From Acidobacteriota bacterium (lineage in GTDB: Bacteria; Acidobacteriota; Vicinamibacteria; Vicinamibacterales; UBA2999): a DNA stretch of 53,849 nt. Location: the NCBI GenBank assembly GCA_016210845.1, contig JACQTK010000026.1:1-53849 (forward strand), written 5' to 3'. Positions 3,508 to 21,398 of this stretch are shown piece after piece. The notes under the pieces are model-generated. The model made no database searches. It saw only the letters and a list, made by a program, of their open reading frames with translations, and was not told the origin of the DNA. Position 1 is the first letter of the stretch. Each line of letters opens with the position of its first letter. The translations under genes and the position numbers were made by a program.

Positions 3508-3607
3508 GTCCGCCAGCGGAACGACCAGTCCCACAAACGGATAGTCCTCCGAAAAAGCATTACATTTTGGGCCGGAAATGGGCCGCCACGCGGGCACGCG
3601 CCTTGAT
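3508..3607 (+). promoter_or_regulatory. Putative enhancer dyads (3508-3522, 3528-3542) plus sigma-54-like -24/-12 element (3593-3607)
   Basis: GTCCGCCAGCGGAAC and GTCCCACAAACGGAT 20 bp apart; GGCACG-N4-TTGAT with GG-N10-GA spacing; 40 bp before an ADOP ATG; same layout at 18.1 kb. Confidence 0.5.
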
Positions 3608-3648
3608 TCACGCGCCCGCGTACACTCTCAGGCTTGGAGCAGCCCGCG

Positions 3649-6121
3649 ATGCCTGGAACCCTCTGGCAGGACGTTCGCCACGGCGCCCGGATGCTGATGA
3701 AGAATCCGGGCTTCTCGCTCATCGCCGTCGTGTCGATTGCTCTCGGCGTCGGCGCGAACGTCGGGATGTTCAGTGTCGCCGACGGTCTCGTGCTGCGCCC
3801 GCTGCCGGTGCCTCGTCCCGGCGATGTGGTCACGATTAGCGCCATCACGCCGGGCATCGGATTCCGCAATTTCCGGCTGTCGTACCCCGACTACGTCGAC
3901 CTACGCGATCAGTCGCGAAGCTTCGACGGGGTGGTGGCGTACAGGTTCGTGACGACGGGCGTCGTGGACCGGTCGGGCGAACTGGCACAGCGCAAGGTCG
4001 GTATGGCGGTCAGCAGCAATCTCTTCGACGCCATGGGGGTCTCGCCCGCGCTCGGGCGGGCGTTTCGTGCGGATGAAGACGAAGTGGTCGGGCGCGACCT
4101 GGTTGTGATTCTTGACCACGGTGAGTGGACGCAGCAGTTTGGCGGCGACCCCGGGATCGTCGGTCGCGACATCAGCATCGGCAGAAAAGTCTTCACCGTG
4201 ATCGGGGTCGCCTCGGCCGCCTTCACGGGCATCGCCGCAGACGTTCACCCCGCCTTCTACATCCCACTCGCCGCATGGTCGTCCGTTCAGAACGGCGTGC
4301 CGCCCGATGAACGCGCGCGGCGGGATCTCCGTGGGCTGGTCGTGAAGGGCCGCCTGAAATCCGGCGTCACGATCGCACAAGCGAGAGCGGACGTGGCGCA
4401 GATCGGGTCGAGCCTGGAAGAGGCCTATCCGGCGACCAATCGAAACCGGGGCTTTGCGGTTCGAACCGAGTTTGGAGCACGCACCGCGCAAGGCCCGGGC
4501 GCCGACAATGCGCCGATCGTGGCGGCGCTGATGACGTTCGCGCTCGTGGTGCTCCTCGTGGCGTGCGCCAACGTGGCCGGACTGCTCACCAGCCGCGCGC
4601 CGGTGCGGGCACGCGAGATCGCACTCCGTCTGGCCATTGGCGCCGGAAGGGGGCGCTTGGTTCGACAGCTCGTCACCGAGAGCCTGATGCTCGCTGCGAT
4701 CGGAGGCGCGGCGGGCCTCGCCCTCGGATACGGCGCCATTGCCCTCTTTCAGCAGCTCGAGTTTCCGACGGATGTCCCGTTGAAGCTCACGTTCGAGTTG
4801 GACCGCCGCGCGTTTTGGGTTGGTGTGGCGGCGGCCGCCGCGAGCGCAATCCTGTCGAGCCTGGTTCCCGCGTGGCAGGCGGCACGCACGGACCTCGTGA
4901 GTTCCCTGAAGGACCCTGCCGCGACAGCACCACGTCACGCGCGACTCTGGGGACGAAGCGCGCTCGTCTGCGGGCAGGTGGCCCTGTCGCTCGTGCTGCT
5001 GACCGCTTCCGTCTCCTTGTATCGCGCGTTCCAGGCTGAACTGGGCCAGGGGCCGGGCTATCGCACGGATGGGATCCTGATGATGGCGTTCGACGCCGAC
5101 CTGGCCAGGTACGACGAGACCCGAGCCCGCCAGTTCTACCGCCTGCTCAAGGAAAGGACGCTCACCTTGCCGGGCGTGAGGTCGGTCACGGTGACGTCCT
5201 CCGTACCAATGAAGACGGACACCGTCGAGTTTGCGCGAGTGGCCCCCGAGAGGTTCGAGCTTCCCCCGGGAACCGGGAACGTGAGCGTGCTGTCGGCGCG
5301 TGTCGACGAGGACTACTTCGACACGATGGACATTCCGCTTATTCGCGGCCGTGCGTTCAGTCCCACGGACACGGCCGAGACACCCCGCGTGGTCGTGGTG
5401 AACGAGACGTTCGCCGCGCGGTACTGGCCAGCTCAGGACGCCATCGGCAAGCACGTCAGGCTGGACGATCAGGGTCGCGCGCTCGCCGAGGTCGTCGGCA
5501 TTGCCGCCGATGCCAAGTACACCTGGATCGGAGAGGGGCCGTCCGAGTTCATCTATCTCCCGCGGACCCAGGCCTTCGCGGCCGAGAGCACGCTGCTCGT
5601 CCAATCGGAAAGGGAGCCGGCGTCGCTGGCGGGTCCCCTGCGGGACGTGGTGCGTGCGATCGATCCGAACATGCCGGTCTTCGGTGTCCGCACGATGGAG
5701 GATTTCTACTTCACGCGCGCGGTGCATACCACGAACCTGATCGTCGGCAGCGTCAGCGGCATGGGTTCGATGGGCTGATCCTGGCAATGATCGGCCTGTA
5801 TGGGCTCGTGGCGTACGCGACGGGGCGGCGCACGCGCGAGATCGGGATCCGCATCGCGGTGGGCGCCGCTCCCAGGTCGGTGCTGGCAATGGTCATCCGC
5901 AGGGGCTCGTCCTGCTCGCGTCGGGCGTCGCCGCGGGCATCGCCGCGAGCACCGGAGCGGGGCGTCTCCTGCAGGCGGCGTTCCCGATTGCGGGCAGGAT
6001 CGATTTCAGCACCTACGGAGTTGTCATCGCCATGATCATCGCCGTCACAATGACGGCCGTCTATGTTCCGGCCAGACGCGCCGCGCGGGTCAACCCGATC
6101 GCCGCCCTCAGAACCGAATAG
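3649..6121 (+). pseudogene. ADOP permease with two apparent frameshifts
   Basis: MPGTLWQDVRHGARMLMKNPGFSL... to 'GSVSGMGSMG*' at 5778; continues in another frame 'LILAMIGLYGLVAYATGRRTREIGIRIAVGA', then shifts near 5905 to 'GLVLLASGVAAGIAASTGAGRLLQ...PARRAARVNPIAALRTE*'. Confidence 0.8.
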
Positions 6122-6129
6122 GAGTCGTG

Positions 6130-6870
6130 ATGCTCTTCAAGCGCTCGTCGTCGCTGTCCGCCGTGCCCGACCTCGCCGCGCTGCCGGCCAACGCGCCGCT
6201 CGTCTCCACGCGCGGCATCGAAAAATCATATCCCGTCGGCCCGGGGCAGACCTACGTCCTGCGCCGCATCACGCTCGACATCAAGCCAGGCGAGTTCGTG
6301 TCGATCATGGGGCCCTCGGGCGCGGGCAAATCTACACTGCTCCACATTCTCGGGATGCACGACGGCGCCTGGAGCGGCGAGTACTACTTCATGGACCAGC
6401 CCATTCACGCGCTCGCGCCGAAGCAGCGCGCCGCGGTCCAGAAGCGCAACATCGGCTTCGTGTTCCAGAGCTACCACCTGCTCGACGACCTCACCGTCTA
6501 CGAGAACATCGAGCTGCCGCTCTCCTACCGCGACGTCCGCAAGTCCGAGCGCCAGAGCATCGTCGCCGACGTGCTCGATCGCTTCGGCATCGTCGCGAAG
6601 AAGGACCTCTACCCCTCGCAGCTCTCGGGAGGCCAGCAGCAGCTCGTCGGGGTCGCGCGCGCCATCGTCGCCAATCCGGCCGTGATCCTAGCCGACGAGC
6701 CCACCGGCAACCTGCACTCCGACCAGGGCCGCGAAATCATGGAGCTGTTCAAGGCGCTCAACGAGCAGGGGACGACGATCCTGCAGGTGACGCATTCGGA
6801 GACCAACGCCGCCTATGGCCGCCGCATCATCAAGCTGCGCGACGGCTTCATGGAGCGGGAGACACCATGA
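6130..6870 (+). CDS. ABC transporter ATP-binding protein (MacB/LolD type)
   Basis: Walker [10 protein letters not shown], signature LSGGQQQ, Walker [12 protein letters not shown]. Confidence 0.93.
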
Positions 6871-9486
6871 CCGCCCTGGGGCCGGACATCAGGCTGGCGG
6901 CTCGGATGCTCTTCAAGTATCCGGGCCTGACGCTCGTCAGCAGCCTGAGCATGGCCGTCGCCATCGCGGTCAGCGTCGGTTTCTTCGTCTTCTTCTACTC
7001 GTTCATCTACGCAACGCTGCCGCTCGATGAAGGCGACCGGATCGTCGGCATCGTGAACTGGGATGCCGCCGCGAACACCCAGGAACCCCGGTCGCTCCAC
7101 GACTTCCTCACCTGGCGCGAAGAGCTCGAGTCGTTCGAGAGTGTCGGCGCGTATCGGCCGATTCGGCGCAACCTGTTCTCCATCGGCGGCCCGGCACAGT
7201 CCCTCCCTGGGGCCGAGATCACGGCGGGCGGGCTGCGGCTCGCGCGGGTGCCTCCCCTGCACGGCCGGCTTCTCTTGGACGAGGACGAGCGCGCGGGCGC
7301 CCTTGAGGTCGTCGTGATCGGCTACGACGTCTGGCAAGGCCAGTTCGCGTCTGACCCTTCCGCAGTCGGACGGACGATCCGGCTCGGCACCGTGCCCCAC
7401 GTGGTCGTCGGCGTCATGCCGGAGGGCTTTGGCTTCCCGGTGAGCCAGCGGTTCTGGGTCCCGTTGCGCGCCGACGCGGCGAGCTTCGAACGCCGCCAGG
7501 GACCCGCCCTCGAGGTGTTCGGCCGCCTCGCGCCAGGCGCAACCGAGGACAGCGCGCAAGCGGAGTTGACGACGATTGGCCGTCGGACCGCTGCCGCCTT
7601 CCCGCAGACCCACGGGCAGCTCAGGCCGCGGATTGTGCCCTACACCGGGCTCTGGACCGCTATGCGGCCCGGAACGCGAATTTTGTTCTCGTTGTGCCCT
7701 CCGCATAGCGGTCCTAGCCGCGCGAAGCGCGGCAGAACAATACTGGCAACCAGCCAAGGGGCTCCGGGGATATCAAGGGGCGGAGCCCCTTGGTTGGTTC
7801 AACGAGGTGGACCTCTGGTATGTGCACGTCTTCCAGGCGCTCGTGACGTCGCTGCTCATCGTCGTCGCGGTCAACGTCGCCAGCCTGGTGTACGCGCGAA
7901 CGGCAACGCGGCACGGCGAAATTGCCGTGCGCAGCGCGCTCGGCGCGAGCCGCCGCCGGATCGTGGCGCAGCTCTTCGTCGAGGCCTTCGTGCTCTCCGC
8001 GCTGGCCGCGGGTCTGGGATTGCTGTTCACCGAGGCCGCTCTGTCGTACGTGAGTCGCGTGATCGGGCTATTGGGCGACGTGCCCTTCTGGCTCGATTTC
8101 GATCTCTCCTGGAACCTGGCGCTCTACATCACGGGACTCGCCGTCCTTGGCGCCGTCATCGTGGGGGTCCTGCCCGCGATGCAGGCGACGGGATGCCGAG
8201 TGCAGGCCAGGCTTCGCGACCTTGGCGGCGGCACCGGCATGCAGCTCGGACGCACGTGGACGGCGCTCATCGTGGCGCAGGTTGCCTTTGCCGTTGCTGC
8301 CCTGCCGGTGGCAGTGTCCTCCGGATGGCAGCTGATTCAGCTCGGAACAGCGGAGCACCCATTTGCGGCCGACGAGTTTCTGACCGCGCGGCTCGTGATG
8401 GACCAGGAGACTCCGTCGAGCGCGCGGGCCGAGGCCTATCGCCGCGAGTTCGCCGCCCGCTACGGGGCTCGCCTCGTCGAGCTGACGGATCGTCTCGAGG
8501 CGGACCCTCGCGTCGCTGGCGTGACGTTCACGTCCCACTTTCCCACTGACGAGGCGCCTGCAGTGATCGACGTGGATGGGGTGCGGACGGAATCACGATC
8601 CGGTCATGACATTCGCGTCGGTCGCGTCGATCTGAACTTCTTCGAGACGTTCGACGTCCCTCTTGTGGCGGGCCGGAGTTTCGGATCCGGCGACCAGGAC
8701 GACGGGGCAACTTCAGTCGTCGTCAATCAGGCGTTCGTCCAGACCGTGCTCGGCGGTGTGAATCCGCTCGGTCGCCGCGTACGCTACGTGCGCTATAGGC
8801 GCGAGACCGGCGATGCGGAGTTCGACCTGGATATGGAGCGCTGGTACGAGATCGTCGGCGTCGTCGGCAATTTTCCGGCACGACATGTCGAGCCGCTCCA
8901 GGTGGAGGCGAAGCTGTACCACGCCATCGCGGCCGATCGCCTGTACCCCGCGCGTCTTTCGATGCGTATCAGGGGCGCGGACGCGACGACCTTCGCCGGG
9001 CGCCTGTACGAAATGACCACCACCTTGGATCCGGCGCTCCTGCTCCAGGAGGTCCAGTCCCTTGGCGACGTCTACGACGAAGAGCAGAGCGCGATGCGCA
9101 GGGGTGCCTTGCTCATCAGTATGGTGATGGGAAGCGTCCTTCTCCTCTCCACGGCCGGCCTCTACACGCTCATGGCGTTCACGGTCGTCCAGCGCCGGCG
9201 GGAGATTGGCATTCGGCTCGCCCTTGGCGCCGACGCCGCGCGCATTCTGGGAGGCGTCTTCTCGCGAGCGCTTCGGCAGCTTGCCGTGGGGATCGCGATC
9301 GGCGTCGCCATCGCCGCGGGGCTCAGCAGGCTCAGCGGGGGAGCTCTCCTCTTCGGAGGCCGCGCGGCAGTGCTCCTCCCCGTCGCTGCGGCGCTGATGC
9401 TCGCCGTAGGCCTGCTGGCGGCGATCGGCCCCGCGCGGCGTGGACTCAGGATCGAGCCGAGCGAGGCGCTGAAGGCGGAGGGGTAA
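6867..9486 (+). pseudogene. ADOP permease interrupted by a ~163-bp insertion
   Basis: N-terminal frame [23 protein letters not shown]... to 'IVPYTGLW' at 7655; frame resumes 'LWYVHVFQALVTSLLIVVAVNVASLVYARTATR' at 7813; ends 'EPSEALKAEG*'. Confidence 0.75.
7650..7812. mobile_element. Putative miniature hairpin-rich insertion
   Basis: Perfect 14-bp IR GGACCGCTATGCGG (7654-7667)/CCGCATAGCGGTCC (7701-7714); hairpin CCGCGC-GAA-GCGCGG (7718-7732); 19-bp IR with one mismatch (7748-7766/7781-7799); CTCTGG direct repeat at 7650 and 7813. Confidence 0.55.
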
Positions 9487-9493
9487 CGTCACC

Positions 9494-11908
9494 ATGTGGC
9501 ACGAGATTCTGGTCGCCGTTCGCATGCTCCTCAGGGATCGCGGGCTGACGCTCGCGGCCGTGGCCGCGCTCGCCCTCGGGATTGGCGCGAACACCACCGT
9601 ATTCACCATTGCCAATGCGGTCGTGCTGCGCGACCTGCCGTTCGACGAGCCCGACCGCATCGTCGAGGTCGGGACGCGCGTGCAGCAGGGCAATCGCGGC
9701 GTCTCCTACTTCGATCTGCTTGACTGGCGCGAGCGCTCGCGCACGTTGGACGGGATCGCCGCCTTCACGCAGCAGACGATGAACCTGAGCGACGACGAGC
9801 ACGCCCCGGAGCGGGTCGACGGCGCCTATATGTCGGCCGACGCGTTCGGCCTCATCGGCCATCAGCCCATGCTCGGACGCGCCCTGACGGCGGACGACGA
9901 GTGGCCCGGCGCACCGTCCGTGATCGTCCTGGGATACGCCGTCTGGCGAGATCGCTATGGATCCGACGTAGACGTCGTCGGCCGGACGATCCGTGTGAAT
10001 GGTGTGCCGTCGGTTGTCGTCGGCGTGATGGCCGAAGGCTTTAGGTTCCCCTTCAGCGCCGACGCCTGGCAGCCGATCACCCGATTCTCCCCAGCGGTCC
10101 TCCAGCGCCGCGACGCACGCACGCTGGGCGCGGTGGGACGGCTGGAGGCGGACGCGACGCTCGCACAGGCGCGCGACGATCTCGCGATCGTGATGGACGG
10201 CCTCGCCCGCGAGTATCCGGCGACGAACGCGGGCCTGCAGCCACGCGTCCTCCCGTTCCGGCTTGGCGCGGGTCCCCAGGTCAACGTCACCATGTACGCG
10301 CTGCTCGGCGCCGTTGCCTTCGTGCTGCTCATCGCGTGCGCCAACGTCGCCAACCTACTCCTGGCGCGCGCCGCCGATCGCACACGAGAGATATCCGTGC
10401 GCATGGCCATCGGCGCCTCGAGCTGGCACATCGTGCGCCAGCTGCTCGTGGAGAGCGTGCTGCTGGCCGCTACGGCGGGTGCGATTGGGCTCGGCCTCTC
10501 GGTGGCGGGCGTCAGGCTTTTCACCCGCGCCGTGACGGGCACCGGCGAGCCCTACTGGCTGCAGTTCACGATGGACCTGCGCGTGTTCGGGTTCTTCGCG
10601 GCGCTCTGCCTCGGCACGGCCGTGCTGTTCGGGCTGGCCCCCGCGCTGCACGCGGCCAGGACGAACGTGAGCGAGACGCTCAACGAGTCGAGCCGCGGCG
10701 CCGCGGGCGCCCTCAGGGCCCGCCGCTGGGCTGGCGCGCTCGTCGTGTTGCAGCTGGCGCTCGCGCCGGTCCTGCTGACGGGAGCCGGCCTCATGATGCG
10801 GACGCTGATTGCTTCGTATCAGGCTGACCCTGGCATCGACACGTCAGGGCTGCTGCGCCTTCGCCTGGTGCTCGGCAGCCAGGCCTATCCCCGCCCGGAA
10901 CAGCACGCGCAGTTCTATCGACAGCTCGAGGATCGGCTGGCGTCGATACCCAACGCCCGGGCGACGCTTGCCCACGCCGCCCCGCTCGAGGGGGCCACAC
11001 CGCGGGAGGTGTCGTTCGACGATCGTCCCGAGCCGCCGGCAGGCACGCGCCCCGTGGTCTCGATCCTCACCATCGGCCTGCGGTACTTCGACACGCTGGG
11101 CGTGCGCCTGCTGCAAGGCCGCGACTTCGCACCGAGCGATACTGGCGCGGGGGAGACGCCCGCCATCGTGAACGCGCGCTTTGCGTCGCTGCACTTTCCG
11201 GGAGTCGACCCGAGCGGCCGACGCATCCGTCTGACGACGACGGGAACGCCGGACCCCACCGAGCCGGAGTGGGTCACGATCGTCGGCCTCGCGCCAAACA
11301 TACGACAGCGCGGCACCGAAGACCTCGATTTCGATCCGATCGTCTACCTGCCGTATTCGGCCAATCCGCTGACGTGGACCAGCATCCTCGTGCGCTCGGA
11401 ATCCGATTGGGCCCTCGTGACGTCGCAGCTTCGCGACCACGTGCGCGCGATCGACGCGGACCTCCCGCTCTTCGACATCGTGACGGTGGACGACCTGTTC
11501 TGGCGCGAGCTGTGGCCGATCCGCGTCTTCGGATCGATGTTCGCCGTCTTCGCGCTGATCGCGCTCGTCACGGCGGGCATCGGACTCTACGCGGTGACGG
11601 CGCGCTCGGTCGCACAGCGGACGCGCGAGCTTGGCGTCCGCATGGCCCTCGGCGCTCCGGCCGCGGAAATCTGATGGATCGTGACCAGGCGCGTCTCGGT
11701 GCAGCTCGGCATCGGCCTTGTCGTGGGAATGACGGGGGCGGTCGCCCTTACGCGCGTGTTGCAAACCCTCCTGCAGGTGAGCACCACGGATCCCGTGACG
11801 CTCGCGGCCGTGCTGACTGTGCTTCTCCTGGTCGGCCTTGGCGCGTCACTCGTACCGGCCCGCAGGGCGATGCGCGTCGACCCGGTGGTGGCGCTGCGGG
11901 CCGAGTAA
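9494..11908 (+). pseudogene. ADOP permease with in-frame TGA
   Basis: MWHEILVAVRMLLRDRGLTL...LGVRMALGAPAAEI*(TGA 11672)WIVTRRVSVQLGIG...PARRAMRVDPVVALRAE*, same frame on both sides. Confidence 0.8.
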
Positions 11909-18101: not shown

Positions 18102-18192
18102 GTCCGCTTCCGGGACGCCCCGTCCCACAAGCGGACAGGTCGACGCGCCACACGCGCGATTTCCGGCCACACTCGCAGGCACGCCGCTTGAT
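18102..18192 (+). promoter_or_regulatory. Putative enhancer dyads (18102-18116, 18122-18136) plus sigma-54-like element (18178-18192)
   Basis: GTCCGCTTCCGGGAC and GTCCCACAAGCGGAC, 20 bp apart; GGCACG-N4-TTGAT. Confidence 0.5.
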
Positions 18193-18281: not shown

Positions 18282-18719
18282 CTATTCCGTCACGTTGACC
18301 GTGATCGTCGAGCAGAGCCCCTCGATCGTCCGGTGCAGGTCGTCGCCGATCTGCAGCGAGAGCCGGTGCTGCCCGGGCGGGAGCTGCATGTCGATCACGT
18401 TCTTGCCGTCGCCGAAGTGCACCCAGGGCGCGGCGCGCGGGATCTCCGTGCCCACCGGCAGGCAGTCGGCGTCGACCGCCACGTGATAGTGCCCGAGGTT
18501 CGGTCGCGTCTCGGTGACGGTGCCCTCCGGCACCGCCGCGATGGTGAACTCCTGAGACCCGAACTCGAGCATCACCGGGCTCGTCACGGTCGCGCCGTCC
18601 TGCGGCTGGACGAAGAAGACCCGCGGCCCGCTCGGCTCGCTCTGCCCGCTTTGCCCGCTCGGCTGGCAGGCGGCGAGCAGCCCGATCGCGCACGTTGCTG
18701 TCAGAGTCCGTATACACAT
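18282..18719 (-). CDS. DUF4399-like lipoprotein
   Basis: MCIRTLTATCAIGLLAAC lipobox; 'ARPNLGHYHVAVDAD'-type region (TRPNLGHYHVAVDADCLP) and 'PPGQHRLSLQIGD'. Confidence 0.75.
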   Translation of the reverse strand: MCIRTLTATCAIGLLAACQPSGQSGQSEPSGPRVFFVQPQDGATVTSPVMLEFGSQEFTIAAVPEGTVTETRPNLGHYHVAVDADCLPVGTEIPRAAPWVHFGDGKNVIDMQLPPGQHRLSLQIGDDLHRTIEGLCSTITVNVTE

Positions 18720-20094
18720 GGCCCCAATGATAATCTCGTCCCCAGTGGCTGGCGCGCGCATCCTGATCGCCGACGACCAGCGTGACGTCCTCGAGGCGCT
18801 CCGCCTGCTCCTGAAGGGCGACGGCTACCAGATCGACACCGCCGATTCCCCCGCTGCCGTCCTGCAGGCACTCGAGCGGCGCGAGTACGACGTCCTGCTG
18901 ATCGACCTGAACTACGCCAGGGACACCACCTCCGGCCAGGAAGGGCTGGACCTGCTGGCCAGGCTTCGCGCCGCGGACGAGTCCCTTCCGGTCGTCGTGA
19001 TGACCGCCTGGGGTTCGGTCGGCCTGGCCGTCGAAGCCATGCGCCGCGGCGCCCGCGACTTCATCGAGAAGCCCTGGGACAATGACCGGCTCCTGACCGT
19101 GCTGCGGACCCAAACCGAGCTGGGCCGTGCGCTGCGCCGGTCCACGCGGCTCGAGGCGCACACACGCGCTCTTTCGGACGGCGGCCCCGCGCTCATCGCC
19201 GACGCGCCGGCCATGCAGCCCGTGCTGCAGGTCGTGGCACGCGTGGGACCGTCGAACGCCAACGTGTTGATCACGGGCGAGCACGGCACCGGCAAGACGC
19301 TCATCGCGCAGGCGCTCCACGCCGTGTCGCCGCGCGCCAGCCGGCCGATGGTCACGATCAACGCGGGCGGCGTGTCCGAGGGCGTGTTCGAGAGCGAGCT
19401 GTTCGGCCATGTCAAAGGCGCCTTCACCGACGCCAAGCAGGACCGCGTGGGCCGGTTCGAGCTCGCCGACGGCAGCACGCTCTTTCTCGACGAGATCGCC
19501 AACGTCCCGCCGAGCCAGCAGCAGAAGCTGCTGCGGGTGCTCGAGACGGGCGAGTTCGAGCGCCTCGGCTCGTCCAGGACGCGCAAGGCCGACGTCCGCC
19601 TCATCTCCGCCACCAACGCCGACATTCACGCGGAGGTGGCGGCCGGGCGGTTCCGCCAGGACCTCCTCTTCCGGCTGAACACGATCGAGATCGCCCTGCC
19701 CCCGCTGCGCGGCCGCCGCGAGGACATTCCCAGGCTGGCGAAGCACTTCCTCGGCGTCCATGCTCGCCGCTATCGCAAGACGCTCACCGGCTTCGATCCG
19801 TCTGCCATGCAGGTGCTCACCGACTACGCGTGGCCCGGCAACATCCGGGAGCTCGATCATGCCGTCGAGCGAGCCGTCCTGATGGCGCCGGGGCCTTCGG
19901 TGCGCACGGCGGATCTCGGGTTGCGCCCCGCAGCAGACTCGGCGGGACGACTGGAGGACATGAGCCTGGAGGAGGTCGAAGCCATCCTCGTCAAGAAAGC
20001 GATGGCGCGGCACGGCAACGTCAGCCAGGCCGCCAAGGCCCTTGGACTGAGCCGATCGGCGCTCTATCGGCGCCTCGAACGACACAAGCTGTGA
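18718..20094 (+). CDS. Sigma-54-dependent response regulator (NtrC family)
   Basis: Receiver ILIADDQRDVLEALRLLL; AAA+ motif ESELFGHVKGAFTDAKQDRVGRFELADGSTLFLDEI; Fis-type HTH at C-terminus. Confidence 0.95.
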   Translation: MAPMIISSPVAGARILIADDQRDVLEALRLLLKGDGYQIDTADSPAAVLQALERREYDVLLIDLNYARDTTSGQEGLDLLARLRAADESLPVVVMTAWGSVGLAVEAMRRGARDFIEKPWDNDRLLTVLRTQTELGRALRRSTRLEAHTRALSDGGPALIADAPAMQPVLQVVARVGPSNANVLITGEHGTGKTLIAQALHAVSPRASRPMVTINAGGVSEGVFESELFGHVKGAFTDAKQDRVGRFELADGSTLFLDEIANVPPSQQQKLLRVLETGEFERLGSSRTRKADVRLISATNADIHAEVAAGRFRQDLLFRLNTIEIALPPLRGRREDIPRLAKHFLGVHARRYRKTLTGFDPSAMQVLTDYAWPGNIRELDHAVERAVLMAPGPSVRTADLGLRPAADSAGRLEDMSLEEVEAILVKKAMARHGNVSQAAKALGLSRSALYRRLERHKL

Positions 20095-21398
20095 CTCACG
20101 ATCGCCGCCTGCTGCTGATGACGCTCGCCGCAGGCCTCCCGGGCGTGCTCGTCGCGCTGGTTCTCCTCTGGCTCGGCGGGTCCAGTCCGGCCCTTCGCTG
20201 GACGCTGACGGCGCTCATCGTGGGCGTCTGGGCTACCGTCGCCTTTGGCGTGCGCGACCGCATCGTCCGACCGCTGCAGACGATCTCCAACCTGCTGGCC
20301 GCGCTGCGCGAGGACGACTTCTCGATCCGCGCGCGCGGCGCCAGCGCGGGCGACGCGCTGGGCGGCGTCATGCTGGAGCTCAACGCGCTGGCCGAGATGC
20401 TGCGTACGCAGCGGCTCGGCGCCCAGGAGGCGACGGCGCTGCTCCGCGCCGTAATGGAAGAGATCGACGTCGCCATCTTCGCCTTCGACAGCACGCAGCG
20501 GCTGGCGCTCGTGAACCGCTACGGCGCGCGCCTGCTCGGGCGCCCCGGGGAGGCGCTTCACGGGCTGCGCGCGGGCGAGCTCGGGCTCCAGCCGGCGCTC
20601 GACGCCGACTCGGGCGTGGCGGACATCAGTTTTCCAGGCGGTGCGGGACGGTGGGAGGTCCGGCGGACGAAGTTCTGGCAGGGCGGCAACCCCCACGAGC
20701 TGCTCGTGCTCGCGGACGTGAGCCAGCCGCTGCGCGAGCAGGAGCGCCAGGCCTGGCAGCGGCTGATTCGGGTGATCGGGCACGAACTGAACAACTCGCT
20801 CGCGCCGATCAAGTCGATCGCGGGCAGCCTCGAAGGCCTCGTGGCGCGCACGCCGCCACCGGACGACTGGCGCGACGACATGCAGCGCGGCCTGGCCGTG
20901 ATCGCCTCGCGCGCCGACGCGCTCAGCCGCTTCACCGCGGCCTACGCGCGGCTGGCGCGGCTGCCAGCCCCGCACCTCCAGCCCGTCACGTTCGCGCCGC
21001 TCATGCAGCGCGTGATCGATCTGGAGACGCGCGCGCCGGTCACGCTGCGGCAGGGCCCCGACCTCGTCATCGCCGCCGATCCCGACCAGTTGGAGCAGCT
21101 CCTCATCAATCTGGTCCGCAACGCGGTCGACGCGGCGCTCGAGACCGGAGGGCGTGTGTTCGCAGGATGGGCGCACGCGGACTCGATGCTGGAAGTGACC
21201 ATCGAAGACGAGGGCCCGGGGCTCTCCAACACCGCCAATCTCTTCGTGCCGTTCTTCACCACCAAGCCCGACGGATCGGGCATCGGGCTCGCGCTGAGCC
21301 GCCAGATCGCGGAGGCCCACGGCGGCTCCCTCACGCTCGACAACCGCAGCGATACGCGCGGTACCCGGGCCACGGTCAGGCTCCGGTTGTATCATTAG
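20091..21398 (+). CDS. Sensor histidine kinase
   Basis: GTG start overlapping previous stop; two TM, HAMP-like, IGHELNNSLAPIKSIAGSL, NLVRNAVDA, DEGPGL, DGSGIGLALSRQIAEAHGG. Confidence 0.92.
   Translation: MTHDRRLLLMTLAAGLPGVLVALVLLWLGGSSPALRWTLTALIVGVWATVAFGVRDRIVRPLQTISNLLAALREDDFSIRARGASAGDALGGVMLELNALAEMLRTQRLGAQEATALLRAVMEEIDVAIFAFDSTQRLALVNRYGARLLGRPGEALHGLRAGELGLQPALDADSGVADISFPGGAGRWEVRRTKFWQGGNPHELLVLADVSQPLREQERQAWQRLIRVIGHELNNSLAPIKSIAGSLEGLVARTPPPDDWRDDMQRGLAVIASRADALSRFTAAYARLARLPAPHLQPVTFAPLMQRVIDLETRAPVTLRQGPDLVIAADPDQLEQLLINLVRNAVDAALETGGRVFAGWAHADSMLEVTIEDEGPGLSNTANLFVPFFTTKPDGSGIGLALSRQIAEAHGGSLTLDNRSDTRGTRATVRLRLYH

Follow-up and report, generated by a model that had tools for sequence, protein, structure and literature searches.

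Under standard sigma-54 control, dyads serve as an enhancer, a closed complex is held at the -24 and -12 elements, and the promoter is opened at the expense of ATP. ADOP permeases are abundant in Acidobacteria, and we found no description of their control in the literature. Among the regulators described so far, DVU2106 of Desulfovibrio vulgaris, which has a GAFTDA loop, controls the sigma-54-dependent orp operons, with IHF sites located between its own sites and the promoters (PMC4641369, PMC3897727). Since DVU2106 serves sigma-54 promoters, GAFTDA is compatible with sigma-54 activation (PMC4641369). Contact with sigma-54 was not detected for VfmH of Dickeya, which leaves doubt about the role of GAFTDA (PMC10714721). 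As for the exporters, sigma-54 control has been predicted for ABC exporters of COG0577 and COG1136 in Opitutia, and for those of COG0577 in gamma-Proteobacteria and Bacteroidia (PMC12316311); in the part of that source considered here, there is no mention of Acidobacteria, of an activator site, of operon conservation or of a -12 variant.

The window analyzed here is the whole stretch of 53,849 nucleotides. According to our analysis, it probably carries two copies of a sigma-54-type enhancer-promoter module, A (3508-3607) and B (18102-18192), which would act under the regulator encoded at 18718 and drive exporter genes and the gene of this enhancer-binding protein (EBP). Judged from the sequence, the module is of a known general kind, and what appears unusual is the -12 element and the duplication of the control sites. 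The sites are as follows:

3508-3522, forward strand: site A, distal dyad GTCCGCCAGCGGAAC, 7 of the 8 consensus dyad bases
3528-3543, forward strand: site A, proximal dyad GTCCCACAAACGGATA
3593-3607, forward strand: promoter A, sigma-54-like, GGCACGCGCCTTGAT (-24 GG, -12 GA)
18102-18116, forward strand: site B, distal dyad GTCCGCTTCCGGGAC
18122-18137, forward strand: site B, proximal dyad GTCCCACAAGCGGACA
18178-18192, forward strand: promoter B, sigma-54-like, GGCACGCCGCTTGAT

The initial annotation had paired the 37-mers at 3508-3544 and 18102-18138, and these are indeed identical at 29 of 37 positions. It had read both as tandem 15-bp GTCC-N7-GGAC dyads; the dyad starts are 20 bp apart at both sites, but the dyads are perfect only at site B; at site A, each deviates at one position (GTCCGCCAGCGGAAC, GTCCCACAAACGGAT). 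The sequence GGCACG-N4-TTGAT follows as had been noted, at 3593 and 18178, although the gaps that precede it are 48 and 39 bp and not 50 and 41 bp. Transcription from promoter A is predicted to start near 3617.

The genes that concern us here are the following:

3649-5778, forward strand: ADOP-family permease, the first gene after promoter A and its short leader (ATG at 3649), with TIGR03434, MacB_PCD and FtsX domains
6187-6870, forward strand: MacB/DarD-like ABC ATPase; its ortholog in relatives is encoded directly 5' of the EBP gene
6882-9486, forward strand: ADOP-like permease over two frames (ORFs 6063-8549 and 7576-9486), probable frameshift
9494-11674, forward strand: ADOP-family permease (TIGR03434, 721 bits, above the cut-off of 622.3)
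18282-18719, reverse strand: DUF4399 gene (PF14347) with a lipoprotein-like start by reading, separating promoter B from the EBP gene
18718-20094, forward strand: NtrC-type response regulator (EBP) with receiver, AAA+ (GAFTDA) and Fis-type HTH domains (Pfam)
20064-21398, forward strand: sensor histidine kinase, partner of the EBP (HATPase_c, PAS)

The gene downstream of site A is an ADOP gene, as had been proposed, with a TIGR03434 score of 639.2 bits against a curated cut-off of 622.3. The ATPase domain of the 6187 gene forms the C-terminal part of ORF 5800-6870, and the split of the following permease over two frames suggests a frameshift or a decayed gene. In comparison to the MacAB and darobactin DarBCDE exporters, the adaptor, MacB-like ATPase and FtsX-fold permease are shared, whereas the scores here are under the equivalog cut-offs and the permease belongs to the ADOP subfamily. 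The exporters of PMC12316311 are likewise similar in their FtsX/MacB-like permease and ATPase genes and predicted sigma-54 promoters, within the part of that source considered here.

The product of the 18718 gene combines a PF00158 AAA+ domain (211 bits) with HTH_8 and Response_reg domains, in agreement with the NtrC-family assignment made earlier. Its loop reads GAFTDA instead of GAFTGA; GAFTDA, or in one case GSFTDA, was found in all 17 orthologs, and GAFTDA also in three other activators of the same genome. Within 1.5 kb of the genes of such activators on contigs C67 and C250, no TTGA promoters were detected. Another activator gene (L091, G000:C130 near 21477) is devoid of a GAFTGA-like loop and has TGGCATCCCGCTTGAT 40 bp 5' of its start codon. 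The locus resembles NtrC-family EBPs with paired upstream activating sequences (UAS) in the receiver-AAA+-Fis HTH architecture, the tandem dyads, the -24/-12 promoter and, in relatives of this genome, an IHF-like site between UAS and promoter; it differs in the GAFTDA loop, in TGA or TGT for TGC at -12 and in the three control copies per genome. With DVU2106 and orp it shares the GAFTDA activator, the predicted use of sigma-54 and, in relatives, IHF-like sites between activator palindromes and promoters, but DVU2106 is a one-component protein and regulates a set of cell-division genes.

Orthologs were searched for in 43 genomes of the family including this one, i.e., in 42 relatives. The 18718 ortholog was present in 16 of them at 75-79% identity, with the paralogs clearly apart at 40-46%. 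In 15 of these 16 the EBP gene lies directly 3' of an exporter ATPase gene and is followed by the kinase gene. This ATPase is orthologous to that at 6187 (69-75% identity over approximately 210-230 aa, matched range 6187-6846), and the kinase is 59-74% identical to that at 20064. The order of the operon in relatives is adaptor-ATPase-ADOP-ATPase-EBP-kinase, the ADOP-like permease being placed there only where it was detected.

The start of the operon was readable in 12 relatives from four genera, to which all counts for the control region refer; the relatives all belong to one family and are not independent of each other. In 12 of 12 the operon is headed by the dyad [GA]TCCC-N5-CGRACA, with GTCCCAC-N3-CGRACA as its summary form, about 90 bp 5' of the promoter, and a second half of the GTCC or GTTC type lies about 20-23 bp further upstream. 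The -24 element TGGCA[CT] is invariant (12/12) and always separated by 5 bp from the -12 element, which reads TTGA in eight, GTGA in one, ATGA in one and TTGT in two relatives. In all 12, an IHF-like sequence with 7-9 of 9 matches to WATCARNNNNTTR precedes the promoter by 27-30 bp, and the adaptor ATG usually lies about 80 bp downstream of the promoter. The leader between the promoter and this start codon contains the blocks GATGCCATC and CCGTCTAAG, conserved in nearly all 12 relatives (L150-L164); a hairpin in the leader after the promoter folded no better than shuffled sequences, and no stable hairpin was predicted. The earlier proposal that the dyads are target sites of the 18718 product or of a relative of it gains support from phylogenetic footprinting, which favors 18718: the operons of the 18718 orthologs carry the same dyad and promoter at their head wherever the start is readable.

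Some features of the window sites count against this reading. The distance from dyad to promoter is 64 bp at A and 55 bp at B compared with about 90 bp in relatives, where the distal dyads are also weaker and their spacing varies from 20 to 23 bp. The IHF-like block seen in relatives is absent between UAS and promoter at both window sites, with 6 of 9 and 4 of 9 matches to WATCARNNNNTTR. The antisense DUF4399 gene stands between promoter B and the EBP start, which are some 525 bp apart, and a separate promoter closer to the EBP gene is possible.

The -12 element requires separate consideration. The GGCACG of A and B agrees with the -24 element TGGCAC, and the GG-N10 spacing is right, but GA replaces the GC of the textbook TTGC in A, B and a third copy on contig C24. 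The initial annotation had called this element close to the sigma-54 consensus; the -24/-12 form is indeed conserved, but GA is a conserved trait and not a near miss, given that none of the 12 relatives and none of the three copies in this genome has TTGC. Since all of these lack the -12 C, promoters A and B are predicted to work like sigma-54 promoters without being textbook members of the class. The missing C, together with the conserved GATGCCATC, which in most relatives follows TTGAG at about 15-17 bp, roughly a -35/-10 distance, would also suit another regulator acting with another sigma factor, e.g., of the sigma-70 type, in which case TTGA would belong to a -35 element. This appears quite improbable to us: the GATGCCATC block is unlike TATAAT, the invariant -24 element has its fixed spacing to -12, and a sigma-54-type activator is encoded in the operon. 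Elsewhere, the family appears to use sigma-54 promoters, because canonical TGGCACG-N4-TTGCW sites are often found shortly upstream of start codons. Two results count against the proposed sigma-54 reading: the exact string is no more frequent in the family than in the reversed control, and a search of 1.36 Mb of this genome, about one third of it, did not find rpoN. In three genomes (L055, L061, L062), canonical sigma-54 promoters also precede the gene of a short conserved protein (MVQTLCTSGNHEELKCGVHAAAVALAGLMAAYNIAACCFRSDRHLRVNA...).

Pattern searches in this genome show the limits of the dyads taken by themselves. The exact tandem dyad occurs once in the 4.18-Mb genome (at 18102) and not at all in the reversed control. 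The bare tandem pattern with up to two mismatches is not enriched genome-wide (6 vs. 7 in the reversed control), so the dyads alone prove little, and a search for single dyads with one mismatch allowed gave 13 against 23 in the reversed control, which counts against the proposed reading. An extended pattern (GTCCC-N5-CG...A, 30-90 bp, GGCA[CT]-N5-TTG) has exactly three matches in 1.36 Mb of the genome, namely A, B and the C24 copy, all with TTGA; this pattern was partly shaped on these very sites, and the non-circular test is the ranking with matrices built from relatives only. Among 107,666 positions, the dyad matrix placed 18122 first and 3528 third, and the promoter matrix 18177 first and 3592 third (promoters B and A, respectively). 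The dyad scores were 17.6 (B) and 13.0 (A); because shuffled sequences reach similarly high values (mean top score 13.4, maximum 17.2), the weight of the test rests on both positions having been named beforehand.

Beyond this genome, the 20-bp tandem spacing was considered as a signature of the class or phylum, but it is rare (8 of 193 class genomes), and the exact spacing is not the feature that is conserved. A relaxed dyad-plus-promoter pattern matched this genome alone among 396. A scan for dyads plus promoter across GTDB returned seven contigs, one of which has the sites before an ADOP-like gene (L114); in others, from Planctomycetota and other groups, they lie upstream of genes for secreted-looking proteins. 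These may be sites of other regulators. The GTCC tandem repeats of genome G019 were disregarded because they resemble a local repeat.

The third copy, on C24, consists of GTCCCACAAGCGAACA and TGGCATAGGCTTTGAC upstream of adaptor-ATPase-ADOP genes, its -12 element again being TTGA. The adaptor (56% identity) and first ATPase (81%) encoded there are orthologs of those in the operon of relatives, and the simplest reading is that the one operon of the relatives now exists here as three or more separate parts, and that every part has a control element to itself. The proximal dyad is also matched exactly, but with no recognizable promoter, at L002/L042 (G000:C182:12010) and L169 (G000:C107:1444), the C107 one adjoining an ADOP fragment. 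Such copies, and the fact that the whole element is an imperfect inverted repeat, could be taken to identify the 37-bp repeats as mobile or structural elements (REP-like hairpins) devoid of a regulatory role. We give this view very little credence, because across four genera the element keeps its position and orientation before one operon and is accompanied by the same promoter in every case, and no T-run follows the inverted repeat on its 3' side.

The assignment of the dyads to the 18718 product is not obvious, because the genome encodes about 29 sigma-54 activators (PF00158 proteins), and the dyads might be targets of another of these, or of several that are related, with the 18718 gene a mere neighbor. 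Related tandem dyads stand before an ADOP gene with a canonical promoter (CTTGCT at -12) in G010, G012 and G014, and a fourth dyad pair, also on C24, lies upstream of a PadR-ADOP pair with CATGCT at -12; both would fit such an activator. We nevertheless consider it unlikely: the EBP gene is inside the exporter operon in nearly all relatives that have it (15/16), the same dyad heads that operon wherever its start is readable, all 17 orthologs share the identical HTH stretch GLSRSALYRRLER, and G010, G012 and G014 all carry the 18718 ortholog themselves. One further ADOP-like gene (L041, G000:C253 near 3420) has TGGCACGCTTACTGCC shortly before its start codon; since matching dyads are absent there, another activator may control it.

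With 18718 as the preferred regulator, the two dyads would be upstream activating sequences bound by EBP dimers. The kinase encoded at 20064 would phosphorylate the EBP, which would then assemble and contact the closed complex of sigma-54 RNA polymerase at GGCACG-N4-TTGAT, where ATP hydrolysis would open the promoter. Promoter A would serve the cluster of ADOP permease and MacB-like ATPase genes, promoter B the EBP-kinase pair (autoregulation) and the C24 copy the adaptor-ATPase-ADOP genes; the exporter cargo may be envelope-active or antimicrobial compounds. The arrangement fits the standard sigma-54 model, including, in relatives, the DNA-bending part (the IHF-like site). Binding, sigma-54 use, phosphorylation and the direction of control are inferred here, dyad binding from conserved linkage only.

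A more speculative suggestion, which we regard as doubtful, is that activator and promoter have adapted to each other as a private pair: the altered GAFTDA loop would match a -12 element in which TTGA replaces the C, and this sub-class of sigma-54 control would insulate the exporter regulon from the cell's other sigma-54 activators. Such a link is conceivable, because structural work places the GAFTGA loop close to the DNA between -20 and -12 (PMC7057263). The fourth C24 site and the G010 group have the -12 C, which speaks against a strict GAFTDA-TTGA rule, and for the same reason the regulon may include canonical promoters too.

In conclusion, conservation ties together an activator, its probable target sites and a promoter form, so that the exporter regulon can be put to a direct test. 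Because the -12 C is replaced throughout and the activator has GAFTDA, the system offers a natural test of co-evolution between the activator loop and the -12 DNA. The splitting of the operon, with a control element on each part, would represent a clear example of a regulon held together through gene rearrangement.
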